This document shows positions 1-16,093 of a stretch of 61,741 nucleotides of DNA, in pieces. Below the pieces are notes generated by a model. The model had not been told where the DNA came from. It searched no databases and worked only from the letters and a program-made list of their open reading frames with translations. Source of the DNA: an uncultured Anaeromyxobacter sp. Its GTDB lineage: Bacteria > Myxococcota > Myxococcia > Myxococcales > Anaeromyxobacteraceae. Numbering within the stretch: position 1 is the stretch's first letter; each line of letters starts with the position of its first letter. The translations under genes and the position numbers were made by a program. Location: positions 1 to 61,741 of the forward strand of contig CAIVAR010000056.1 of NCBI GenBank assembly GCA_903904005.1, written 5' to 3'.

Positions 1-183
1 CGCCTCGGCGTACTTGAGGTACGTCTCGACGGAGGCGATGACGACGCGGGCCTCGATCGAGAGCAGCTCGATGCCGACCAGCGAGACCTTGGCCCAGGCG
101 TCGATCACGATGCCCTTGTCCAGGATCCGGTCCACCACTTCGGCGAGGCTCGACGAGTCCGTCGACTTCATGACCTTGGCCAT
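1..183 (-). CDS. gvpA: Gas vesicle structural protein GvpA (N-terminal part, runs off window)
   Basis: The first 61 codons read [20 protein letters not shown] and continue with [20 protein letters not shown], then the [19 protein letters not shown] segment. This is the highly conserved GvpA/GvpJ core; the family is about 70 residues, so only the last few residues are missing at base 1. GvpA assembles into the hydrophobic ribbed wall of gas vesicles, gas-filled protein shells giving buoyancy. The ATG at 181-183 is preceded by a strong ribosome site (GGAGGA, 189-194, five bases away). A sigma-54 promoter lies about 60 bases upstream. The paralogue GvpJ has the same fold, but the near-perfect [15 protein letters not shown] stretch favours GvpA. 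Other gvp genes, if present, would lie to the left of the window. Confidence 0.93.
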
Positions 184-240
184 TTGAATCCTCCAGCTGC
201 ATGTTCGAGTCGCTCGATTGCGACCTCTTCCCAGGACAAG

Positions 241-256
241 AGCAACTGCCGTGCCA
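241..256 (-). promoter_or_regulatory. Sigma-54 (RpoN) promoter of gvpA
   Basis: On the minus strand the sequence is TGGCACGGCAGTTGCT, which fits the -24/-12 consensus TGGCAC-N5-TTGCW at every defined position. The -12 C falls at base 242, predicting transcription from about base 230 and a 47-base leader that contains the GGAGGA ribosome site of gvpA. Such promoters need an AAA+ activator; one of that type is encoded at 6528-8036. Confidence 0.85.
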
Positions 257-361
257 CCGGGATCAGGGGGGACCGGGGCACCCACGGTCGGAGCCGGGAG
301 GCGAGATCACTTGGCATTCGGGAGAGGGCGCCCGGCTTCGCCCGCCCGGCGCACCCGGGAA

Positions 362-410
362 GGGAATCGGTTCCCGCATTCCGGGCCCTCGCCGGGGGAG
401 TTCGTTCCCC
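362..410 (-). terminator. Two short hairpins between receiver gene and gvpA
   Basis: GGGAA-tcgg-TTCCC (362-375) and GGGGA-loop-TCCCC (95% GC stem at 395-410) are stem-loops just downstream of the receiver gene on the minus strand. Neither has a U-tract, so intrinsic termination is only a possibility. Confidence 0.25.
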
Positions 411-444
411 GTCGCTCCCGCGCGGGACGCATGATCCCGGGTGA

Positions 445-870
445 TCACGGAACCAGCGATTCCCGGATCGCCGATTCGACCGAAGCGATCATCCGGAGGT
501 TGACGAACGGCTTCTCGAAGTAGCCGTGGAGGCCGCTCGCCCGCACCTCCTCGCGGAGGGCCTCGCTCCCGTAGGAGGTCATGAGGATGGCGCGCAGGCG
601 CGGCGCATCGGCCCTCAGCCGGGCGATGAGGGCCGTGCCGTTGGTGTCGGGAAGGCGGTAGTCGACGATGGCCACCTGGCAGTCGAACCCCGCGGCGGCC
701 CGGATCGCCAGGGACCCGCTCGCCGCGGTGCGCACGACGTGGCCGCGCTCCGACAGGATCCGGGCCAGCACCCAGCAGAGGTTCTCCTGGTCGTCCACCA
801 CCAGGATCCGCCCCGCGGGGGGCGCCTCCTCCGCGTACCGGCGGGGCCGATGGGCGGTATCCGTCTCCAT
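445..870 (-). CDS. Stand-alone response-regulator receiver protein (CheY-like)
   Basis: A 141-residue protein made almost entirely of one receiver domain (about 20-138). It has the acidic pair D26-D27 in RILVVDD, the phosphoacceptor D70 in AIVDYRLPDTNG, the T98-S99 switch position and K120 in GYFEKPF. It has no output domain. It follows the PAS histidine kinase at 909 by 38 bases on the same strand and is probably its phosphorylation partner or a phosphate sink. The ATG at 868-870 was chosen because homology to receiver domains begins about 20 residues later and the longer frame reads through the kinase gene out of phase. Its position next to gvpA is suggestive, but a regulatory link is not shown. 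Confidence 0.85.
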   Translation of the reverse strand: METDTAHRPRRYAEEAPPAGRILVVDDQENLCWVLARILSERGHVVRTAASGSLAIRAAAGFDCQVAIVDYRLPDTNGTALIARLRADAPRLRAILMTSYGSEALREEVRASGLHGYFEKPFVNLRMIASVESAIRESLVP

Positions 871-882
871 GATCCCGACGAT

Positions 883-900
883 GGAGCATCCGCCGTGCCA
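883..900 (-). promoter_or_regulatory. Weak sigma-54-like site before the receiver gene
   Basis: Minus-strand TGGCAC-GGCGG-ATGCT matches the RpoN consensus except A for T at the first base of TTGC. It would place transcription start only about five bases before the receiver ATG, so it may be fortuitous. Confidence 0.22.
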
Positions 901-908
901 GGAGGTGG

Positions 909-2330
909 CTAGGCTCCTGGCGGTGCGACCGGCAACTCCACCCGAAAGGTGGAACCCCTTCCGGCCTCGCTCGTCACCGTCAGCGCACCACCGTGCGCGG
1001 TCACGATGGCGTGGCAGATGGAGAGGCCGAGCCCCGTGCCCTTTCCCGGCGCCCGCGTCGTGAAGAACGGATCGAAGACGTGCTCCTGGATCTCCGGCGC
1101 CATCCCGCATCCGTCGTCGGCGACCTCCAGCCGGACCATGCCCGGCGCACCCGGTCCGACCCGGATGGCGATCTTCCCCGCCCGCCCGGCCGGCATGGCG
1201 AGCGCGGCGTTGGTCGCGAGGTTCACGATCACCTGTTCCAGTTGCCCCACCGAGGCGAGCACGTCGGGCGCCGCCTCGAGCCCGACCTGGATGGTCGCGA
1301 CCTCCCCCACCGAGACCCGCAGCCACCGGGTAGCCGACGCGACCACCGCAGCGAGCTGGACCGGACCCCGCTTGGCGTCGGGGCGGCCGAATGCGGCGAG
1401 GTCCTTCACGATGCGGGAGATGGCGACGCCATCGGCCTCGGCACGCCCCAGCATCTCGATCAGTTCGTCGACGCCGCGGGCCAGGGCATCCCGGTCGAGC
1501 GGCTCACCCGCGCGCAGCGCCTCGGCGAGCTTCCGCGCCTCCTGGACGGCCAGCGCCTGGCACGCCATGCTCCCGGCCAGGGGGTTGTTGATCTCGTGCG
1601 CGACCCCGGCGACCAGCGTCCCCAGGGCCGCCAGCCGGGAGGACACGGCGAGCTGCGCCTGGAGCGTCCGGAACTCGGTGACGTCGAGCGCCACGCCACG
1701 GAAGCCGAGGAGCTCCCCCGCGGGGGAGATCACGGGTACGGCCGAGACGTCCAGCCAGATCGGTCGGCCGCCCTTGTGGAGCGCCTCCTGCTGGAAATGG
1801 GAGATCCTCTCCCGGCGGGCCAGCCGCTCGCCCAGGAAGGCCGCGCTCCTCGCTCGCTCCGAGGGGCCCAGCATGAGGAGCGCGCTCCGCCCCACGACCT
1901 CGTCGGGACGGTAGCCGAGGATGACCTCCACGGCCTCGCTGACGTAGGTGACGGTCCCCTGCACGTCCATCTCGAAGATGTACTCGTCCGACGAGGCGGC
2001 GACGTCCCGGAACCGCTGCTCGCTCGCCTGCAGCGCTTCCAGCGTCCGCCGGTGCTCGGTGACGTCCAGGCAGAACGCCATGTAGCGGTCGTCGGCGACC
2101 TTCACGGCCCGCACGGCGATCCAGGCCTTCCGGCCATCGGGCTGGAACAGCTGGTAGTCCTTCTCCAGCTTGCCCTCGGCCAGGAGCGCCTCGAGCCCAC
2201 GGCGCGTCTGGTCGCGGTCCGCGGGCGCGGCAGCGTCGATGATGGACATCGACCTCAGGGTCACGGCGTCGACGCCGAGCAGCGCCAGGGCAGCCCGGTT
2301 GCCGTCCACGAATCGCCCCCGGCCATCCAC
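909..2330 (-). CDS. PAS-domain sensor histidine kinase
   Basis: It contains two or three PAS domains (about 1-50, 110-230; typical strings GNRAALALLG and YVSEAVEVILGYRPDE). A HisKA helix follows with the phospho-accepting His in VAGVAHEINNPLAGS (about residue 240), then a HATPase with N box IVNLATNAALAM and glycine boxes DDGCGMAP and [14 protein letters not shown]. No membrane segment is seen, so it is probably a cytoplasmic sensor of redox state or a small ligand. The GTG at 2330 begins inside the first PAS domain: the frame stays open upstream with homologous residues (LAPVPLFVV just before it) but no clear start codon. The true start is likely 60-100 bases further up. It is followed by the receiver gene. 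A close paralogue ends at 61640. Confidence 0.88.
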   Translation of the reverse strand: MDGRGRFVDGNRAALALLGVDAVTLRSMSIIDAAAPADRDQTRRGLEALLAEGKLEKDYQLFQPDGRKAWIAVRAVKVADDRYMAFCLDVTEHRRTLEALQASEQRFRDVAASSDEYIFEMDVQGTVTYVSEAVEVILGYRPDEVVGRSALLMLGPSERARSAAFLGERLARRERISHFQQEALHKGGRPIWLDVSAVPVISPAGELLGFRGVALDVTEFRTLQAQLAVSSRLAALGTLVAGVAHEINNPLAGSMACQALAVQEARKLAEALRAGEPLDRDALARGVDELIEMLGRAEADGVAISRIVKDLAAFGRPDAKRGPVQLAAVVASATRWLRVSVGEVATIQVGLEAAPDVLASVGQLEQVIVNLATNAALAMPAGRAGKIAIRVGPGAPGMVRLEVADDGCGMAPEIQEHVFDPFFTTRAPGKGTGLGLSICHAIVTAHGGALTVTSEAGRGSTFRVELPVAPPGA

Positions 2331-4261: not shown

Positions 4262-6538
4262 TCAGGGGGCCGGACGCGCCTTCAGCTGCGCGACCAGCCC
4301 CTGGTAGGTCCGGTCTCCCCGGAGCGATTCCAGATCCGTGTCCTGGTCGATGTTCCGGACGATCTCCTCCGGCATCCCGTACTGGACCGCCTCCCGGAGG
4401 TAGCGCATGGCGTCGTCCCGGTGGTGCTGCAGCGCCGCCTCGCAGATCAGGTTGTAGCGGGCGATGCCCGCCCCCCGACCGTCCGGCCCGCGCGCCTCGA
4501 TCTCGATGGCGAGGACCTCGCGGTTGATCCGCTCCGCCTCGGCGTAGGCCTTCTGCGCCGCGCGGGTGTTGGCGAGGTTGACCATGACCTCGAGCGTGTT
4601 GGGGTGCTTCGGGCCGTAGACGCGGCGCGCCGAGTCGAGGACCTGCAGCTGGAGGTCCGCCGCGCGAGCGAGCTCTCCCTGCTCGTAGAGGTCGTTGGCC
4701 AGGTTGGCGACGGCGGCCATGGTCTTCGGGTGGTCCGGCCCGTGGATGCGCCGGTAGGCGTCGAGCACCGCGGTGCGGATCGAGGCCGACTCGGCGACCC
4801 GGTGCTGCTTGGAGAAGGCGTCGGCGAGGTCGAGCCGGTACGGCATGATCTCGGGGGCGTCGGGCCCGTAGACCCGTTGCCCCACCTCGACGACCTCCCG
4901 GAGCATGGCCTCGGCTTCGGGGTACCTCCCCTGGAAGAGGATGCTGGTCGCCAGCTGGTCCTGGGCGGCGAGCGTGAGCCGGTGGCCGGGCCCCAGGGTG
5001 CGCAGGGAGCGCGCCACCGTCTCCCGGCCGAACGCCTCCGCGTTGCGGAACGCCCCCTCGCTGGAGAGGAGCGTCCCCCAGGCGATCCGGGAATCGAGGG
5101 TCTCCAGGGCGTCGGGGCCCAGCAGGCGCGTGCGGGTCTCCAGCGCGCGCTGGAGGAGTGGCCGCGACACGGCGGGGAGGCCCAGGTCGCCGTAGATGGT
5201 GCCCATGGTGCCCATGAGCCGCGCCTGCAGCTCCGGGTCGCGCACCAGGCCGGTCTCGATCTCGCGGGCGGCCCGGTCGAGCGCCTCCCGCGCGGTGAGG
5301 GTGTTGCCGCGCGCCTCGCTCGGATCGGAGACCTTGAAGATGCCGGAGAGGAAGCCGGCGATGCGGGTCGCCGCCTCGGCCTCCCGGTTGGCCCGGTCGC
5401 GCTCGCGCGAGACCTTGGCGACCTGCACGGCGAGCGCGATGGTGAAGGCGGGCAGCAGGAGCGCCACGGTCAGGCCCAGCGCGACCCCCGTCCGGTGGCG
5501 GCGAACGTACTTCCGGAGCCGGTAGGCGGCGCTCGCCGGACGGGCCCGGACGGGGACGTCCCGCAGGGCGCGCCCGACGTCCTCCGCCAGGTCGGCCACC
5601 GATGCGTAGCGCCGCTCCCGCTCCTTCTCCATCGCCTTCATGACGATGGCGTCGAGGTCTCCCCGGACCTCCCGCACCAGGGCTTCCGGGGTCGTCCCCC
5701 GGGACGCGGCCGCCGCGCTCCCGCCTCCGTCGGACGAGAGGAGGCAAGCGCTGGGGGCCCGGGGGTCGGTCTCGAGGAGGCGCCGCCGCAGCTCCGGCGG
5801 GGTGGCGCCCCGGAGCCCGGTCGAGGCGAAGGGAAGCGACCCCGTCAGCAGCTCGTAGAGCATCACGCCAAGTGAATAGACGTCGGCCCGGGTGTCGACG
5901 TCCCTTCCGGCCGGATCGGCCTGCTCGGGGCTCATGTACTCGGGCGTACCCACCGGGAGGCCGACCTCCGTCTCGAGCGCGTTCTCCCCGAGCCGCTGGC
6001 TCACGGCCTTGGCGATCCCGAAGTCGATGATCCGGGGCTGCGGGCGGCCGTCCACGGTGACCACGAGGACGTTGGAGGGCTTGAGATCGCGGTGGATGAC
6101 CGCCTTCTGGTGGGCGTGCCGGACGCCCTCGCAGACGGCCACGAAGAGCTCCAGCCGATGGCGCGTGGTGAGCCGGTGCGCGTCGCAGTAGGTGAGGAGC
6201 GGCTCCCCCTCCACGAGTTCCATCACGAAGTAGGGGCGCCCCTCGGAGCTCGACCCTCCGTCGAGGACCCGGGCGATGGCGGGATGCTCCATCATGGCGA
6301 GCGCTTGCCGCTCCGCCTCGAAGCGCGCCACCACCCTGCGGGTGTCCATCCCGGCCTTGATCAACTTGACCGCGACCGTCCGCCGGATCGGCTCCGTCTG
6401 CTCGGCGAGCCAGACCTCGCCCATCCCACCCTCGCCGAGCCTTCGCAGGAGCCGGTAGGGCCCCACCGATCGGCGCGCGGACTCTCCTCGCGGTCCGATG
6501 GGCACGGGCTCGCCGTGCACGACGGTGTCATCCACCAT
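4262..6538 (-). CDS. Transmembrane Ser/Thr protein kinase with C-terminal TPR repeats
   Basis: An N-terminal Hanks-type kinase domain (about 27-295) has a glycine loop LGEGGMGEVW (34-43), ATP-binding K58 in VAVKLIK, HRDLKPSN (149-156), DFG at 172-174 and an activation segment ending GTPEYMSPEQ. A membrane helix follows at about 352-375, then some eight TPR-type repeats (about 430-735; AVSRPLLQRALETRTRLLG, NDLYEQGELARAADLQLQ). The layout, with kinase inside and TPR outside or the reverse fold-back, is common in Acidobacteriota and Myxococcota. Its ATG lies 11 bases inside the upstream FHA/sigma-54 activator gene, so the two are translationally coupled. FHA domains bind phospho-threonine, so the kinase may phosphorylate that activator or its partners (inference). 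Confidence 0.92.
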   Translation of the reverse strand: MVDDTVVHGEPVPIGPRGESARRSVGPYRLLRRLGEGGMGEVWLAEQTEPIRRTVAVKLIKAGMDTRRVVARFEAERQALAMMEHPAIARVLDGGSSSEGRPYFVMELVEGEPLLTYCDAHRLTTRHRLELFVAVCEGVRHAHQKAVIHRDLKPSNVLVVTVDGRPQPRIIDFGIAKAVSQRLGENALETEVGLPVGTPEYMSPEQADPAGRDVDTRADVYSLGVMLYELLTGSLPFASTGLRGATPPELRRRLLETDPRAPSACLLSSDGGGSAAAASRGTTPEALVREVRGDLDAIVMKAMEKERERRYASVADLAEDVGRALRDVPVRARPASAAYRLRKYVRRHRTGVALGLTVALLLPAFTIALAVQVAKVSRERDRANREAEAATRIAGFLSGIFKVSDPSEARGNTLTAREALDRAAREIETGLVRDPELQARLMGTMGTIYGDLGLPAVSRPLLQRALETRTRLLGPDALETLDSRIAWGTLLSSEGAFRNAEAFGRETVARSLRTLGPGHRLTLAAQDQLATSILFQGRYPEAEAMLREVVEVGQRVYGPDAPEIMPYRLDLADAFSKQHRVAESASIRTAVLDAYRRIHGPDHPKTMAAVANLANDLYEQGELARAADLQLQVLDSARRVYGPKHPNTLEVMVNLANTRAAQKAYAEAERINREVLAIEIEARGPDGRGAGIARYNLICEAALQHHRDDAMRYLREAVQYGMPEEIVRNIDQDTDLESLRGDRTYQGLVAQLKARPAP

Positions 6539-8036
6539 CGGTCCTCCCGATCCCCAGCCGCCCCATCAGGCGCTGCAGGTTCGTCCGCGGCAGCCCGAGC
6601 TCCCGGGCCACCGCCGTCACGTTGCCCGCGTGGAGGCGGAGGAGGGCGGCGACGCGCTCTCGCTGCGCCTGCTCCTCGGGGTCGAGCGCCCGGTCCGGCT
6701 CCTGCAGCCGGGGGGCACGCGAGGCGCCCTCCCGGACGCCCGGCGGGAGGTGGTGGGGAAGCAGGACGACGGGCGAGCTGCCGTCCCCCCGGGCCAGGTC
6801 GACGGCCACGAGCAGCGCCTGTCGGAGCTCCCGCACGTTGAGCGGCCAGTCGTGGAGGAGAAGGAGGCGCAGCGCGTCCAGGTCGAAGCGGATGCCCTCC
6901 AGGGGAAGGGAGGCCGCCCGGAGAACGGACCGGATCAGGATCCCGAGGTCCTCGCGCCGGTCACGCACGGACGGGACCCGCGTGGAGAGGAGCCCCAGCC
7001 GGGCCAGGAGGTCCTGCCGGAAGGTTCCCTCGGCGACCAGCTTCCGGAGGTCCCGGTGGGTGGCGGCGATGACCCGGACGTCGACCGTGGTCTCGGCCTC
7101 GGTGCCGATGGGACGGACGCGGTGATCCTCGAGCACCCGGAGCAGCTTCACTTGAAGTGCGGGTGGCATCTCCCCCACCTCGTCGAGAAGCAGCGTGCCC
7201 TGGTGGGCGGCGCGGATGAGCCCCTGCCGATCGGACTGGGCGCCCGAGAAGGCGCCCTTCACGTGACCGAACAGCTCGTCGTCGAGCAGGTTCTCCGCGA
7301 GTGCGCCGCAGTTGACGCCGACGAGCGGCCCGGTCCTTCCCGACCGGCCGTGGAGCGCGCGCGCCAGGACCTCCTTGCCGACGCCGGACTCCCCCTCGAC
7401 GAGCAGCTCGTGGCCGGTCCGGGCCAGCCGCTCGATCCGGGACAGCTCGAGCTCCCACTCCGGGTTCAAGGTGCTCGGCTCGAAACCGTCCCGCCGCGCG
7501 GGGGCCGTCAGGCGAGGGGTGTCGGCCGCCCCGTCGGCCCCGTCCCGGAAGAGGAAGAAGGTGTGCCCGACCTCGAGCAGGGCCTCGTCGGCGAGGAGCG
7601 ACCGCTCCCCTCGCCCCAGCCGGCGTCCGTCGACGAAGGTCCCGTTGGTGGAACCCTCGTCGAGGGCAATCCACCGGCCGCCCTCCCGGAAGATCCGGAG
7701 GTGGTGCCCCGAGACGTACCGATCGTCGATGGCGATCGAGAGCGTCCGGTCCTGCGTCCGTCCCCCGTTGGCGTCGGAGCGGGAGAACACCACCTCGTCG
7801 CAGGCGCCCAGCCGGTGGCGGGACGACGGCGCCGCGAGGTCCTCGGCCGTGATGAGGCGGACCAGGAGGGCGCCGAGAGGGACCGACGCCCCGCCGGGCG
7901 GCGACGACTCCTCGTGAACCAGCGTCCCGCGACTCTCGACGGTGTCCAAGCGCCCCCCCCGGGGGGTGAGACTAGCCGGATCGCCGGCGTCGTCCAAGAC
8001 GCACCACGCCGCGAGCCGCAGATCGAGCGAGGGCAC
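6528..8036 (-). CDS. FHA-domain sigma-54-dependent transcriptional activator (enhancer-binding protein)
   Basis: Domains in order: FHA (about 78-165; RYVSGHHLRI and GSTNGTFVDGR), the phosphothreonine-reading module; an AAA+ sigma-54 interaction domain (about 190-425); and a FIS-type HTH (about 460-497; NVTAVARELGLPRTNLQRLM). The AAA+ part has Walker A GESGVGKE (214-221), the sigma-54 contact loop GAFSGA (251-256, Ser for the usual Thr) and Walker B LLLDEVGEM (272-280). It remodels RpoN-polymerase at -24/-12 promoters. The FHA input replaces the receiver domain of NtrC-type proteins, so a kinase rather than a histidine kinase should control it. It overlaps the Ser/Thr kinase gene at 4262 by 11 bases. 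Its start is a GTG at 8034-8036. The RpoN promoter upstream of gvpA is a plausible target. Confidence 0.92.
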   Translation of the reverse strand: MPSLDLRLAAWCVLDDAGDPASLTPRGGRLDTVESRGTLVHEESSPPGGASVPLGALLVRLITAEDLAAPSSRHRLGACDEVVFSRSDANGGRTQDRTLSIAIDDRYVSGHHLRIFREGGRWIALDEGSTNGTFVDGRRLGRGERSLLADEALLEVGHTFFLFRDGADGAADTPRLTAPARRDGFEPSTLNPEWELELSRIERLARTGHELLVEGESGVGKEVLARALHGRSGRTGPLVGVNCGALAENLLDDELFGHVKGAFSGAQSDRQGLIRAAHQGTLLLDEVGEMPPALQVKLLRVLEDHRVRPIGTEAETTVDVRVIAATHRDLRKLVAEGTFRQDLLARLGLLSTRVPSVRDRREDLGILIRSVLRAASLPLEGIRFDLDALRLLLLHDWPLNVRELRQALLVAVDLARGDGSSPVVLLPHHLPPGVREGASRAPRLQEPDRALDPEEQAQRERVAALLRLHAGNVTAVARELGLPRTNLQRLMGRLGIGRTDGG

Positions 8037-8358: not shown

Positions 8359-8512
8359 TGGAGGCCTCCGTGAAGGGTGGGTGGTCGGGTCCCGCCGTGC
8401 GGGATGGGAGGACCGATTTCACGATCCGGGCCAGCGGCCCCGGCGCGTGGAAGGTCATGTCCGGCGCGGGTTTCCGCACTTCGCCCGGGGTCGGGCCCCT
8501 CACGAACCGGGC

Positions 8513-9529: not shown

Positions 9530-10254
9530 TCCGAAACCCCGTGCCCAAGACTCCACCCGCCGCGACGATCGCCTTTCGCGGCTTCCACGACGCCCGGGGC
9601 GACTTCTTCCTCGCCCTGGCCCTGCACAACGACCGGGAGTGGTTCCAGGCCCACCGCTCCGACTACGAGGAAGGCTGGGCCGCTCCCATGGCGGCGCTCC
9701 TCGCAGGGGTTCGAGGCGGCCTGAATGGCGCCTACGGGCGCCGGGCGCCAGGCGATCCCAAGGTCTTCCGGATTCACCGCGACGTCCGGTTCGGCAAGGA
9801 CAAGACCCCGTACAAGACCCACGTGGCCGGCTGGATCCCGATCGATACGGGAGGTGTGGCGAGGCCCGGCGTCACCCCCGCGGCGATGTACCTCCAGGTG
9901 GGCGTCGACGCGGCTTTCACCGGTAGCGGATGCTGGACGCTCGAGCCCGATTCCCTGAAGCGCTTCCGGACGGCGCTCCTCGACCCCCGCCGGGGCGCCG
10001 CGCTGGCCCGCCGGCTGGACGGGCTCACGGCGGCGGGTTGGTCCTGCTCGTGCGCCGAGTCGCTGGTCCGCGTCCCGGCGGGCGTCGATCCGGATCACCC
10101 GCGTGCGGCGCTGCTCCGCATGAAGGGGCTGGTGCTGGATCCCGGCGGGGTTCCGAGGCGGCTCCTCACCCGGCCGGAGCTGGTCGGGTGGCTCGTGGAG
10201 CGGGCCCGCGCGGCAGCGCCCGTGGTGGGCTGGCTGGCGGAGAACGTGGCATGA
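9526..10254 (+). CDS. DUF2461 / TIGR02453 family protein
   Basis: It carries the family signatures LALHNDREWFQAHRSDYE (near the N-terminus) and KVFRIHRDVRFGKDKTPYKT, followed by the MYLQVG strand and a C-terminal basic helix. Members are about 220-240 residues, of unknown biochemical function. A start at GTG 9526 (overlapping the upstream TGA as GTGA) or GTG 9541 both fit; no strong ribosome site is seen, so coupling is assumed. The end overlaps the SDR gene as ATGA. Confidence 0.85.
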   Translation: MIRNPVPKTPPAATIAFRGFHDARGDFFLALALHNDREWFQAHRSDYEEGWAAPMAALLAGVRGGLNGAYGRRAPGDPKVFRIHRDVRFGKDKTPYKTHVAGWIPIDTGGVARPGVTPAAMYLQVGVDAAFTGSGCWTLEPDSLKRFRTALLDPRRGAALARRLDGLTAAGWSCSCAESLVRVPAGVDPDHPRAALLRMKGLVLDPGGVPRRLLTRPELVGWLVERARAAAPVVGWLAENVA

Positions 10255-11048
10255 CCGGCCAGCCGGTTGCCCTGGTGACGGGAGGCTGCTCCGGCATCGG
10301 CTACGCCATCGCGCGTCAGCTTGCGGCCCGTGGGCACGGGCTCTTCCTCGTCAGCGAGCGGACCGGTCCGCTCGACGACGCCGCCGCCCGGATCCGCGGC
10401 GAGCATGGCGTTCCTGTCGAGGTCGCCTGCGTGGATCTGTCTCGCCCCGGTGCGGCCGAGGAGGTCCACCGGCGGGTGCGTTCCCTGGGGTTGGAGATCG
10501 ACGTGCTGGTCAACAACGCCGGCTTCCTCCTCTTCGGGGAAGCGGTCGACGTGCCGATCGAGCGGGCCAACGCCATCCTCCAGTTGCACGTCGTCACCCC
10601 TTCCCTGCTCTGCACCCTCTTCGGGCAGGAGATGCGGGAGCGACGCCGCGGCCGGATCCTGATCGTCTCGAGCATCTCGGCCTGGCGCGACTTCCCCGGC
10701 ATCGCCTACTACGGCAGCAGCAAGAAGTACCTGCGCGGCTTCGCTCGCGCGCTCCGGAGCGAGCTCGGCGTGTACGGCGTCACCGTGACCTGTCTCGCTC
10801 CCGGCCCGGTCGCCACGGGGCTCTACGGTGTCGACTCTCCGGCGATCCGGCGGGGAAAGCGGCTCGGCCTCTTCCTGGATCCGGACCGGGTCGCGGAGGC
10901 CGGCGTCCGGGCGCTCCTCCGGGGCGACGCGGAGTGCATCCCGGGGATCTCGAGCCGTCTGATGGCGCTCGCCTCCGCGGCGACGCCGCAGTGGGTCGTG
11001 GACCTCATCCGACGCCGGGCCCCGTGGCTCCGGCGCGACGGCAGGTAG
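10251..11048 (+). CDS. Short-chain dehydrogenase/reductase (SDR)
   Basis: A 265-residue classical SDR. The NAD(P) loop is TGGCSGIG (10-17), the NNAG motif is at 88-91, the catalytic Ser lies in VSSIS near 140-142, and Y154-K158 is in AYYGSSKKY. The APGPVATGLY segment and the C-terminal VVDLIRRRAPW resemble SDRs of the DltE/YqjQ type that act on lipid or polyketide carbonyls. It ends a tightly packed four-gene plus-strand operon starting at 8646. Confidence 0.88.
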   Translation: MTGQPVALVTGGCSGIGYAIARQLAARGHGLFLVSERTGPLDDAAARIRGEHGVPVEVACVDLSRPGAAEEVHRRVRSLGLEIDVLVNNAGFLLFGEAVDVPIERANAILQLHVVTPSLLCTLFGQEMRERRRGRILIVSSISAWRDFPGIAYYGSSKKYLRGFARALRSELGVYGVTVTCLAPGPVATGLYGVDSPAIRRGKRLGLFLDPDRVAEAGVRALLRGDAECIPGISSRLMALASAATPQWVVDLIRRRAPWLRRDGR

Positions 11049-11072
11049 ACCTGGGACGATCCGCCCCGCCGT

Positions 11073-13091
11073 TCACGCCAGGTCAACTCCGCCGGCCGCC
11101 GCCGCGAAGCGTCGGGGGACGTCACCCTGATCGAGGATGCTCCGGACCCGGCACAGGAGGGTGTTGGCGTTGAACGGCTTGGCGATGAAGTTCACCTCGG
11201 TGGCGAGCACTCCCTTTCGCCCCAGCGCGTCATCCGTGTAGCCGGACATGAGGAGCACCCGGGCATCGGGCCGCTCCCGGAGCAGCAGTTCACGGAAGGC
11301 GCGGCCGTTCATGCTGGGCATGACGACGTCGGCCAGCACGAGGTGGATATCCCCCTCGTGCTCCCGGCAGCGGGAGAGCCCCTCGGCGCCGCTCTCCGCC
11401 ACCAGCACGGTGTAGCCGGCCTTCGCGAGCATCCGCCTAATGATCCCGCGTACGGAGGCGTCGTCCTCGACCACGAGCACGGTCTCGGTACCGGAGAGAT
11501 CCCCCTCCGAGGCTCCCTCCTGGGCCCGGGCCGACACCTCGCCGGTCCGCGGGAGGGTCACGTCGATGGTCGTCCCCTTCCCCACCTGGCTGGCCACGCG
11601 GATGGAGCCGCCGCTCTGCTGCACGATCCCGTACGCCGAGGAGAGACCCAGCCCCGTGCCCTTCCCCGCCTCCTTGGTGGTGAAGAAGGGCTCGAAGAGG
11701 TGCGCCTGGGTCGCCTCGTCCATCCCGGTTCCGGTGTCCGTGATCTGGAGCAGCACCCGGGACTCCTCCACGTTTCGGGTCCGGATGGTCAGGGTGCCCC
11801 CGTCGGGCATGGCATCCCGGGCATTCACCACCAGGTTCACGATCACCTGCTGGAGCTGGACCGGATCGGCCCTGACCGGCACGGGTTCCGGGGCGAGGTC
11901 GAGAAGCAGGGCGACGTCCTCGCCCACGACCCGCCGCAGCATCTTCTCGAGGCCGTGGACGAGCGCGTTCAGGTCGAGCACCTCCGGCTGAAGCATCTGC
12001 TTCCGGCTGAAGGCGAGCAACTGGCGGGTGAGCGCGGCGGCGCGCTCCCCCGCGCCCTCGATCTCGAGCAGGTCGGATCGGAGCGTGCCCTCCTCCGGCA
12101 CGGCCTCGATCGCGAAGCGAACGCTGCTCAGGATGACCGCCAGGATGTTGTTGAAGTCGTGGGCCACGCCCCCGGCCAGCCGCCCGACGCTCTCCATCTT
12201 CTGCGCCTGGAGAAGCTGCGCCTCGAGCTCGAGGCTCCGGGTGACGTCCTTCTTCACCGCGAGGTAGCTCGCGATCCTGCCGGCCCGGTCCCGCACCGGC
12301 GAGATGGTGGCGTCCTCGGTGTAGAGCTTGCCATCCTTTCGTCGGTTGACCACCCGACCGCTCCACGTCCGGCCGGACGAGATGGTGATCCAGAGCGCCC
12401 GGAAGAAGGCCTCGTCGTGGACCCCGCTCTTGAGGAGCCTCGGGTTCCGTCCGATGGCCTCGGCGACCGTGTACCCGGAGACCTCCTCGAAGGCCGGGTT
12501 GGCGTAGACGATCCTTCCCTCGGGGTCGGTGACGACGATGGTCTCGGCCGACTGCTCGATCGCCGTCGCGAGCAGCTCCCGGTCGGCCTCCACCTTCCGG
12601 CGCTCCTCGAACTCCTGCCGGAGCTGCCGGGTTCGCTCCTGCACCAGGGCCTCGAGCTCGTCCACCTGGTGCCGGCGCGCCCGGGCTCCGGCCTTCAACC
12701 GGGCCATGGCGCGGATCTGGGCCACGAGCTCCATCTCGTCGGGCGGCTTGGCGAGGAATCCCTCCGCGCCGGCGCGCAGCGCCTCGACCCGGACTCCCCG
12801 TCCGGTGCCCTGGGCGGTGAGGAAGACCACCGGGATGTCGAGAAGCGCCTCGTCGGCCTTCATCCGGGCGCAGACCTCGAACCCGTCCATCCCGGGCATG
12901 ACGACGTCGAGAAGCACGACGTCAGGGTCCTCCGAACGGGCCAGCTCGATGCCGCGCGCGCCGTCGGTCGCGGTGAGGAGCAAGCACTCCGGGAGGGCAT
13001 CCTCCAGGACCGCGCGCAGGGCGATCAGGTTGTCGGGCGTGTCGTCGATGGCCAGGACCCTGGTCCTGGACGGCTGCGCCGGTCCGCTCAT
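11073..13091 (-). CDS. Hybrid histidine kinase REC-PAS-HisKA-HATPase-REC
   Basis: A 672-residue soluble protein. It begins with a receiver domain (about 8-125, [18 protein letters not shown]), then a coiled coil (about 135-180) and a PAS domain (about 180-290, [20 protein letters not shown]). The HisKA site is [17 protein letters not shown] (about 312), followed by a HATPase ([42 protein letters not shown]) and a C-terminal receiver (about 545-660, [12 protein letters not shown]). It therefore accepts phosphate at the N-terminus and passes it onward at the C-terminus. Its ATG overlaps the stop of the upstream kinase (ATGA, 13088-13091), placing it last in the CheR-kinase-kinase operon. Confidence 0.93.
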
Positions 13092-16000
13092 GGTTGGAGC
13101 GCCTCCCCCACCGCGGCGAGCAGCACCTCGTGGTCGATGGGCTTCGACACGTATCCATCGAACCCCTGCGCGAGCAGGGACTCCCGGTCGCCCGTCATGG
13201 CGCTCGCGGTGAGCGCGAAGACGGGGATGGAGCGCAGCGCCTTGTCCTTGCGTAGCTCGGCCAGCGCGTTGAGCCCGTCCATCACGGGCATGGCGATGTC
13301 CATGAGGATGAGGTCCGGCGGGGAGGCCCGGGCTGCCTCCAGCGCCTCGATCCCGTCCTGGGCCTCGGCGATCTCGTAGCGATCCTCGAGGAGCGCCCGC
13401 GCCGTGCGCAGGTTGTCCGGGTTGTCCTCGACGACCAGCACCCGCGGCCGGGCCGGGTTGGAGACGGGCCGGCGCCCGACCACCCGGACCTCCTTCCCGT
13501 TCGCCGCCTCCTGCGGACGACCGTTCCGGGGAGCCACCATTCCCGCCACCGCGGCGAGAAGCTCCTCCCGGTCCACGTCCCCCTTCTGGATCAGCTGGTG
13601 CACGTCGTTGGCGACGAGCGCCCTCAGGTCTTCCTTGGTGACGTGCTTGGCGGTGAGGATGACGACCGGCAGATTCCGCGTGCGGGGCGAGCGCCGGAGC
13701 TCCGCCACCACCTCGATGCCGTCCATCCCCGGCATCATGAGGTCGAGGATGACCGCGTCGGGGAGTTCCCGGGCGATTCGCGCGAGCGCCTCCCTGCCAT
13801 CCCGGGCGGCCTCCACCCGGTATCCCGCCGCCCCGAGGACGTCGGTCATCTGCACGATGGCGGGTTCGCTGTCCTCGACGACGAGGACGTACTGTCCGCG
13901 CCCCGCAGGCGCCGGGCGGCGCGCGGTGGCGCCGTTCCTGCGTACGGGCCCCGTGCCACCGGTGGGCGGAACCGCCCCGGCGCCGTCGATGGCGAGCGGG
14001 AGGGTGAGCGTGAAGGTGGAGCCCTCACCCGGGGTGCTCCGCACCGTCAGGTCCCCCCCCAGCAGGCGGGCGTAGCGCCGGGCGATGGAGAGTCCCAGGC
14101 CCGTCCCGCCGAACCTTCGCGAGGTGGTCTCCTCGGCCTGCCGGAACTCCTCGAAGATGACCTCGAGCTTGTCCGCGGGGATCCCGATCCCGGTGTCGGT
14201 GACGAACACGCTGGCGCGGTCCCCCTCTACGGACGCGGAGACGTCCACCCGTCCGCGGGAGGTGAACTTCACGGCGTTCGCCACCAGGTTTTGCAGGATG
14301 TGCCGACACTTGTCGGGATCGGAGGCGAGGGCGGGTAGCGCCCCGTCCACCGCGTTCACGAGCGCGATGCCCTTCTCCTCCGCCTGGACCCCGAGGGTCC
14401 CGACGACGTCGGCGGCGAGATCCCGGAGCCCGACGGGGCCGACCCGGAGGTCCTCCTTGCCCGCCTCGATCCGGGAGAGGTCGAGGATGTCGTTGATGAG
14501 AGCGAGCAGGTGCCTTCCGTTCCTCTGGATGACCTCGAGGTATCCATGCTCGTCCACGCCGATCCTTCCGCCGAGGCGCCGTTCCAGGACCCCCGAGAGC
14601 GCGATGACCGAGTTGAGCGGCGTCCGGAGCTCGTGGCTCATATTGGAGAGGAACACGTTCTTCAGGCGGTTGGCCTCGTCGAGCTGCCGCTTCTGGGCCT
14701 CGAGCTCGGCGTTCTGCTCGGTCAGCTCGTTGGCCTGCGCGACCAGTTCGCGCCCCTGCGCGTCGAGCTCCCGGTTCTGCTCCTCCAGCTTCCGGGCCAG
14801 CTCCCGGGTCTTCTGGTCGGCGAGGACGCTGGTCAACCGGGCCGCCACGTTCGCGGCGACGGCCTGCAGCACCCGGATCGACCCGTCCGCGTACGGATGC
14901 ACCGCGGCCAGCGAGACCACGGCCAGGACCTGTTCCTCGGCGACGACCGGGAGGGTCACGATCTCGGCTGGCTGGATGTCCCCGGTGACGGCCCGGAAGG
15001 CGAAGCGGGAGGCCGCCGGGAGATCGCGCACGCGCTGCATCTGCCGGGTTGCCAGGACCGGGCCGAGCTCGCCCTCGAGCGCCTCCACCGAGAAGGAGCG
15101 ACGGACCGCGGGGGAGAGCCCGATCGACTCGAGGAGCTGGAACTCGTCCCCGCCCTCGTTCCGGAGGTAGACCGCCCCGACCTGCGACCCGGTGGCCAGC
15201 AGGAGTCCCTGGAGGAGGTTGCGGAAGAACTCGCGGGGCTCGGCGTGCCGCACCATGCCGGCGGTGAGGTCGGCCACCTCCGCGCGCACCCGGTCGTCGA
15301 TCTGGATCTCGGCGGCCATGTCGTTGAAGGCGGCGCCCAGCTGCCCCACCTCGCTGGCCGACGTGTCCGGAACGCGGACGTCGAGATTCCCGTGGCGAAA
15401 GGCCTCGGCCGCCCCGGTGAGCGTTCCCAGCGAGCGCCGGACGTTGCTCGTGAGGGCCCAGGCGAGGACCACCGAGAGGGTGAGGATCGCGGCGGCAACG
15501 CCGAGCAGCCCGCGCTCCACCGCGATCCGCTCGGCCCGTGCCTCGCCGAAGAACCGATCGGCCCGCTCACGCGCAGCGGCCTCGATGCTGTCGATCCCGG
15601 CCGTGACCGCGCCGAGCGTGAGGCTGGTCCCGTCCCGGCGCTGATCGAGCGCGAGGGCCTCGGCGGTATGGCCGTCGCGCACGAGATGCAGGATCTCCCG
15701 CTGGATCCCGAACCAGGCCGCGATCGACCCCTGGACGCGGACCACGTCCTCCCCGGGTCCGAGGTAGCGGTCGGCGAGGAGCGCGAGGCTGCGCTGGGCA
15801 CGCAGTTGCCGGGACTCGACCGTGACCAGGACGTCATTCGTCCTCGTCGGGGAGGACGAAAGAAGCAGGTCCTTCGTCAGGAGGTCGGTCATCGCGACGT
15901 CGTCCTGCAGGTCGGCGATCGCCTCCTGCACGAGCATCGGACCCTCGTGGAGCCTCTCGGTCTGTCGCCAGAGCGCACCCGCGCCGCGCCAGGCAATCAG

Positions 16001-16093
16001 CGTGAGGACGGCGGTGAGCACAACCATCAGTCCCAGACCGAGGGCGAGGCGTGTCCCGATACGGAGATCCGCGAGCCTCATGGTCACCTCCAC
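13088..16093 (-). CDS. Membrane hybrid histidine kinase (HAMP-GAF-HisKA-HATPase-REC-REC)
   Basis: A 1001-residue protein. TM1 is at about 10-32, an exported four-helix sensor follows (about 35-180, CHASE3-like), then TM2 (about 185-207), HAMP (about 207-260), GAF (about 275-430) and a long Gln/Glu-rich coiled coil (430-490). HisKA has FLSNMSHELRTPLNSVI, the HATPase has VANAVKFTS and FGGTGLGLSIARR, and two receivers follow (about 745-865, VILDLMMPGMDG; about 885-1000, LILMDIAMPVMDGLNAL). The dual C-terminal receivers suggest a phosphorelay with the next gene, which starts with a receiver. Its start overlaps the end of cheR by 10 bases. Confidence 0.93.
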   Translation of the reverse strand: MEVTMRLADLRIGTRLALGLGLMVVLTAVLTLIAWRGAGALWRQTERLHEGPMLVQEAIADLQDDVAMTDLLTKDLLLSSSPTRTNDVLVTVESRQLRAQRSLALLADRYLGPGEDVVRVQGSIAAWFGIQREILHLVRDGHTAEALALDQRRDGTSLTLGAVTAGIDSIEAAARERADRFFGEARAERIAVERGLLGVAAAILTLSVVLAWALTSNVRRSLGTLTGAAEAFRHGNLDVRVPDTSASEVGQLGAAFNDMAAEIQIDDRVRAEVADLTAGMVRHAEPREFFRNLLQGLLLATGSQVGAVYLRNEGGDEFQLLESIGLSPAVRRSFSVEALEGELGPVLATRQMQRVRDLPAASRFAFRAVTGDIQPAEIVTLPVVAEEQVLAVVSLAAVHPYADGSIRVLQAVAANVAARLTSVLADQKTRELARKLEEQNRELDAQGRELVAQANELTEQNAELEAQKRQLDEANRLKNVFLSNMSHELRTPLNSVIALSGVLERRLGGRIGVDEHGYLEVIQRNGRHLLALINDILDLSRIEAGKEDLRVGPVGLRDLAADVVGTLGVQAEEKGIALVNAVDGALPALASDPDKCRHILQNLVANAVKFTSRGRVDVSASVEGDRASVFVTDTGIGIPADKLEVIFEEFRQAEETTSRRFGGTGLGLSIARRYARLLGGDLTVRSTPGEGSTFTLTLPLAIDGAGAVPPTGGTGPVRRNGATARRPAPAGRGQYVLVVEDSEPAIVQMTDVLGAAGYRVEAARDGREALARIARELPDAVILDLMMPGMDGIEVVAELRRSPRTRNLPVVILTAKHVTKEDLRALVANDVHQLIQKGDVDREELLAAVAGMVAPRNGRPQEAANGKEVRVVGRRPVSNPARPRVLVVEDNPDNLRTARALLEDRYEIAEAQDGIEALEAARASPPDLILMDIAMPVMDGLNALAELRKDKALRSIPVFALTASAMTGDRESLLAQGFDGYVSKPIDHEVLLAAVGEALQP

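Follow-up and report, generated by a model that had tools for sequence, protein, structure and literature searches.

Introduction

Gas vesicles are costly organelles that are widely used as acoustic reporters, and to our knowledge how bacteria decide on their production is understood in few species only. In Serratia sp. ATCC 39006, the transcription start of gvpA1 was mapped behind a −24/−12 site, and transcription needs GvrA (PMC4982088). A passage of PMC11778176, citing the Hill 2021 thesis, adds that an rpoN insertion abolishes gas vesicles in this strain and lowers gvpA1 transcription. The principle of sigma-54 control of gvpA is therefore not new. Here we analyse a gvpA gene at the end of a 61,741-nt stretch of DNA (referred to as the window in the rest of the paper), which is the whole of contig C56 of a 4.56-Mb draft genome in 186 contigs. 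All genome-wide statements below come from pattern searches.

Results

A predicted sigma-54 promoter upstream of gvpA

The first base of the window falls inside an open reading frame identified as GvpA (PF00741, 6e-17, 61.9 bits versus a cut-off of 25). Because the window begins at the first base of its contig, this gvpA is truncated to 61 of its ~73 codons, and the rest of the gene and everything downstream are missing. Contigs C56 and C151 both terminate within gvpA at an identical stretch, making the region downstream of the window gvpA unreadable. The features of the window copy are collected in Table 1.

Table 1. Features of the window gvpA and of the region preceding it (window coordinates).
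Feature	Position	Strand	Remark
gvpA, gas vesicle structural protein	1..183	minus	ATG at 183..181; 3' end lost at contig end
Shine-Dalgarno GGAGG	190..194	minus	6 nt to gvpA ATG
Possible 5'-proximal leader stem-loop GAGgTCGC-AATCGA-GCGACTC	207..227	minus	weak alone; trend across leaders
Predicted transcription start (+1)	230	minus	inferred from the −12 position
Sigma-54 (−24/−12) promoter TGGCACGGCAGTTGCT of gvpA	241..256	minus	exact consensus; same element at the C32 and C151 copies
Proximal enhancer-like palindrome GGGAACCGATTCCC	362..375	minus	centre ~−138 from predicted +1
Distal enhancer-like palindrome GGGAACGAACTCCC	396..409	minus	centre ~−172 from predicted +1
Single-domain response regulator (PF00072)	445..870	minus	~70% identical to the regulator before main-locus gvpA
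PAS-PAS histidine kinase	909..2330	minus	upstream of regulator and gvpA, same strand

The core promoter stands 57 nt ahead of the gvpA ATG, and its GG (255,254) and GC (243,242) are spaced by 10 nt, the ideal −24/−12 spacing. The earlier note on this DNA had placed the element 58 bases before the ATG, with ideal spacing and a start at base 230, followed by a 47-base leader with a ribosome site. Recounted from the letters, all of these numbers held: read directly on the minus strand, the predicted leader spans 230..184 (47 nt), with GGAGG at the distance given in Table 1.

Sigma-54 promoters depend on rpoN and start transcription about 12 nt past the GC, and the dyads of their activator sites usually lie 80-200 nt upstream. 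A rpoN gene is present in the genome. The consensus TGGCACN5WTGCW occurs twice in the 61.7-kb window (241-256 and 885-900), compared to 0.02 expected, and exact matches number 12 in the genome compared to 5 in the reversed control, with 4 of the 12 at gvpA-linked loci. The remaining exact sites precede glnA (glutamine synthetase), a type IV pilin gene, a gene for a GspC-like protein adjoining an activator gene, a gene for a sigma-70-family factor and a few others, all named from their translations. As RpoN is known to control glnA and pilin genes in other bacteria, these two sites serve as inner positive controls. The second exact site of the window, TGGCACGGCGGATGCT (885-900, minus), lies between the histidine kinase and response regulator genes, and its 16-mer is identical to the C32 gvpA promoter. 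It would leave a leader of only about 3-5 nt to the likely ATG, has no palindrome pair of the kind described below ahead of it, and may be either a promoter whose leader is very short or what is left of a kinase-gvpA junction of the type found in L133/L134.

A stable hairpin was rejected as a window-specific feature of the leader, its stability not exceeding that of its own shuffles (z = −0.45). As a group, gvpA leaders were more stable than shuffles (mean z −0.93, with −0.03 for the 40-nt stretch preceding −24). Leaders from many phyla (L026-L105) show an inverted repeat right after the predicted start, the letters of which vary while the pairing is kept, as in GACCGC..GCGGTC, ACGAAG..CTTCGT and AGGCATGCCT. 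This repeat could possibly act as a 5' mRNA stabiliser or as a protein site near +1.

Several scattered gvpA copies and a main gvp locus

The genome holds four closely related gvpA genes, on C56 (the window), C151, C32 and C110, and the cluster contig C83 adds two that are gvpA-like. The sigma-54 core lies 71-73 nt before the ATG in three of the four paralogs (C56, C151 and C32), and the C110 gvpA has kept the leader and lost the −24 box. Among all gvpA copies, the promoter score is best in that of the window. Leaders and 5' coding parts are near-identical in all copies; since the leaders and part of the promoters are shared by descent, the paralogs are not independent tests of the promoter.

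The order of the main locus was reconstructed from contig overlaps and from L128, L130 and L026, with sister genomes as a guide; contigs C64 and C151 overlap within an AAA ATPase gene. The resulting order is GvpH, GvpF, GvpF, response regulator, CDC48-like ATPase, histidine kinase, NtrC-type activator, response regulator and gvpA, and C83 probably comes next. The window copy belongs to an extra module in which a PAS kinase, a single-domain response regulator and gvpA follow each other on one strand. Upstream of the C32 gvpA, in L009 at 9921-11144 (−) and 11156-16054 (−), are two large PAS/GAF histidine kinases as well as an XRE-type helix-turn-helix apparently fused to a hemerythrin-like domain (named by eye), which may possibly be an oxygen sensor. 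A stretch like GACCTGGCAGGTGAAGAAGTGT is common to the upstream region of the C110 gvpA (L008 ~8440-8500) and the 3' end of the kinase at 11156 in L009 (C32), and is possibly a dispersed repeat.

A palindrome pair at fixed distances, found at gvpA loci

Upstream of the core promoter lie two GGGA-N6-TCCC palindromes (Table 1), which the earlier note had missed and of which an exact pair has an expectation of 0.00 in the window. Three exact pairs occur in the 4.56-Mb genome, all upstream of gvpA (on C32, C56 and C151), with none in the reversed control. The glnA, pilin and GspC promoters of the same genome have no exact pair, nor do C110 and the sister-genome copy G003:C150, both of which carry a degraded −24/−12. 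Of 24 family genomes searched for exact pairs, only members of the gvpA-bearing genus have them; the 20 from other genera have neither pair nor gvpA. An exact pair in G001, an incomplete genome of the same genus, does not stand at gvpA: no gvpA match is present in that genome, and the pair is probably due to chance.

Distances from the −24 box to the two palindrome centres are 112 and 146 nt in the window, 111 and 145 nt at C151, and 111 and 146 nt in G002. The same arrangement recurs in the distant Myxococcota L077 and L091 (111 and ~144 nt) and in the planctomycete L075, which has the same gene order and weaker palindromes (111 and 145 nt). In C32-type copies, the 34-35 nt between the sites are kept, but the pair lies 12-23 nt nearer to the −24 box. 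Between the −24 box and the palindromes the gvpA copies have diverged, with the palindromes and their spacing retained. Activator sites would be expected to hold such constant positions, leftover sequence would not, and the paired palindromes, as predicted enhancers, would supply the upstream activator sites of a sigma-54 promoter.

NtrC-type activators of gas vesicle loci

The NtrC-type activator of the main locus (C151, L010:2114-3502) consists of a receiver, a sigma-54 AAA+ domain (PF00158) and a Fis-type helix-turn-helix (HTH_8). Its gene lies beside the main-locus gvpA, on a contig other than the window's, and has 80% identical orthologs in sister genomes. Of 51 loci reaching 7 kb or more upstream, 25 contain an activator gene in the fetched stretch.

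A tree built from 81 activators groups together 24 proteins of gas vesicle loci from many phyla (SH-aLRT 95) and separates them from 53 others; the activators of the window's genus form, with that of the planctomycete L075, a second group elsewhere (SH-aLRT being the only support measure of this tree). A smaller first tree, which had outgroups from one genome only and left out 17 proteins, placed all gas-vesicle activators, those of the genus included, on the same side of a branch (support 98/94); the larger tree added 30 outgroups. Either the activator may have been exchanged in this lineage along with the change of enhancer, or the branch may be too deep for the resolution of the tree. The C151 activator probably uses the GGGA-N6-TCCC palindromes. 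The window itself codes, at 6528-8036 (minus), for a sigma-54 activator with an N-terminal FHA domain replacing the receiver.

Sigma-54 sites and a putative enhancer motif at gas vesicle loci of other phyla

We fetched the 80 named loci closest to the window GvpA, 77 of which had enough upstream sequence. Within 250 nt upstream of gvpA, 56/77 loci carry a strong sigma-54 site, compared to 0.9% in shuffles, 2.2% in random stretches of the same loci and 4/77 on the opposite strand. This fraction is not valid for all gas vesicle genes, because the loci were chosen for their closeness to the window GvpA. According to their record titles, the loci span Myxococcota, Thermodesulfobacteriota, Pseudomonadota, Acidobacteriota, Planctomycetota, Lentisphaerota, Riflebacteria and SAR324, although single phylum assignments may be wrong since most loci are metagenome-assembled. 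Named plasmids of Thiodictyon, Methylocella and Methylosinus are further positives. The scanned gvp loci of Halobacterium (haloarchaeal), Streptomyces, Spartinivicinus and Octadecabacter have no sigma-54 site, and those of Rhodococcus and Nostoc give weaker matches only. In presenting most known gvp clusters as sigma-70-type or archaeal in their control, the earlier note overlooked the sigma-54/GvrA control of Serratia sp. ATCC 39006.

A de novo dyad count, made with no prior motif, revealed GGAA-N4-TTCC in 20/69 upstream regions versus 0.25 expected; ATGG-N8-CCAT, TGGA-N6-TCCA and TATG-N10-CATA are parts of the same longer palindrome, refined to CTATGGAATCGATTCCATAG. Trained on half of the loci, the motif was present in 24-26 of 35 held-out loci versus ~0.5 in shuffles. 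Because motif refinement gives weak "motifs" on shuffled input as well (8-20 loci), evidence is taken solely from the held-out test and the de novo dyad count. The strict form has matches in 4 of 7 whole genomes (13 counting both strands; reversed control 0). In several cases a sigma-54 site lies ~110-125 nt away and gvpA adjoins it, e.g. on four Thiodictyon contigs; other matches are not beside gvpA, one preceding a kinase-like gene. The myxobacterial pair has the GGA..TCC core in common with CTATGGAATCGATTCCATAG and lacks the outer CTA..TAG.

In L201 (1389-1550), two conserved enhancer palindromes 35 nt apart are followed by a sigma-54 site, downstream of which stands a histidine-kinase-like gene instead of gvpA; this gene is possibly a further member of the gas vesicle regulon. 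A solitary gvpA on the Thiodictyon plasmid pTs485 (L142 9001-9219) has a sigma-54 site and an enhancer of its own, and the annotation shows no second gvp gene within 9 kb; in another Thiodictyon genome (G046 contigs), several more enhancers are linked to gvpA. Scattered gvpA copies are therefore not special to myxobacteria.

Discussion

The claim that gvpA is under sigma-54 control gains support from the recurrence of the motif at paralogs and across phyla, from the paired palindromes at a fixed distance and from the NtrC-type activator in the main gvp locus, and we consider such control almost certain. Very likely, too, is the fuller reading in which an RpoN promoter of gvpA and a palindrome pair bound by the main-locus NtrC-type activator would switch several gvpA copies together. 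From the promoter, the pair, its exclusive co-occurrence with gvpA and the presence of an activator gene in the locus, all read directly in the sequence, we infer the following steps. Sigma-54 polymerase would wait at the −24/−12 element of gvpA. A gas-vesicle-linked histidine kinase, relaying its signal, would most likely phosphorylate the receiver of the C151 activator, and this receiver/AAA+/Fis-HTH protein would bind the paired palindromes, which precede the −24 box by ~112 and ~146 nt. It would then loop to the sigma-54 polymerase and open the promoter by ATP hydrolysis, with transcription predicted to begin at base 230. A single activator could in this way induce several scattered gvpA copies together.

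The promoter might be real and the pair be bound by another regulator, either a different activator or a repressor, with the main-locus activator controlling something else. The genome does hold ~25 strong sigma-54 activator domains, the C151 protein is a predicted binder of the palindromes, and the activators of the genus group apart from the gas-vesicle clade of other phyla in the larger tree. This reading is nonetheless unlikely, given that the pair is exclusive to gvpA loci, that its exact form is missing at the glnA, pilin and GspC promoters, and that an NtrC-type activator lies in the gvp locus of this genus and of many other phyla. We give still less weight to the view that the window gvpA is a non-expressed relic or the product of a local duplication, its promoter intact only through recent copying. 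The divergence of the stretch between the −24 box and the enhancers, with palindromes and spacing kept, speaks against it, as does the best promoter score of all copies, even though leaders and 5' coding parts are near-identical throughout, the C110 copy is without −24 box and pair, and the cut at the contig end leaves the 3' end and neighbours of the window copy unreadable.

It is barely credible that the core promoter is a chance match and that gvpA is transcribed from another, non-RpoN promoter. The scan used would miss promoters read by other sigma factors, and base 230 is a predicted start, but the consensus counts in window and genome, the exclusive palindrome pair, the conserved distances and the 56/77 loci all argue against coincidence, and no sigma-70-like promoter (TTGACA/TATAAT-like hexamers) was found in the scan of window 1-1000. 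A terminator scan of the same 1000 nt found nothing.

Beyond the RpoN reading of the window copy, we lean towards a wider one, with less assurance. A dedicated RpoN module, made of an activator, its cognate palindromic enhancer and a −24/−12 promoter, would travel with, and be kept at, the gas vesicle genes of about eight phyla. Outside the genus, the activators would form one clade and the enhancer would be CTATGGAATCGATTCCATAG; the Myxococcota would have a different activator, the GGGA-N6-TCCC pair at fixed distances and several scattered gvpA genes, some beside their own sensor kinase. Control known from one Serratia strain would thereby be extended to a wide bacterial group. Should the enhancer prove to be what it looks like, a pattern search would be enough to list the gas vesicle regulon in any such genome, a laboratory host could serve to test the activator, and buoyancy would join the RpoN-gated lifestyle traits. 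The signal that turns on floating would become directly testable via the linked kinases. In the open-access literature searched (subscription journals and preprints being outside the scope), we found no description of the enhancer motif or of wider sigma-54 control of gas vesicles; the predicted enhancer, the multi-phylum spread and the apparent dispersed multi-gvpA regulon are what is new here.

The locus resembles the Serratia gvpA1-gvpY operon in that gvpA stands as first gene behind a −24/−12 element and the gas vesicle cluster includes a gene for an NtrC-family activator, here in the main locus on C151. In Serratia, there is one cluster, which has been 5'-mapped and genetically tested and is under direct quorum-sensing repression by SmaR, whereas the present organism, an uncultured myxobacterial relative known from sequence alone, has at least three scattered sigma-54-type gvpA genes, a defined palindrome pair and kinase and regulator genes beside gvpA. 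Core, spacing and an activator-site pair 100-200 nt upstream are as in the classic NtrC/RpoN promoters of glnA and type IV pilin genes; the glnA and pilin genes of the same genome have the exact core consensus seen at gvpA, but without the exact gas-vesicle palindrome pair. As in the haloarchaeal GvpD/GvpE-controlled gvpA of pNRC100, regulator genes adjoin gvpA, whereas pNRC100 uses the archaeal transcription system and carries no −24/−12 element in the stretch scanned.
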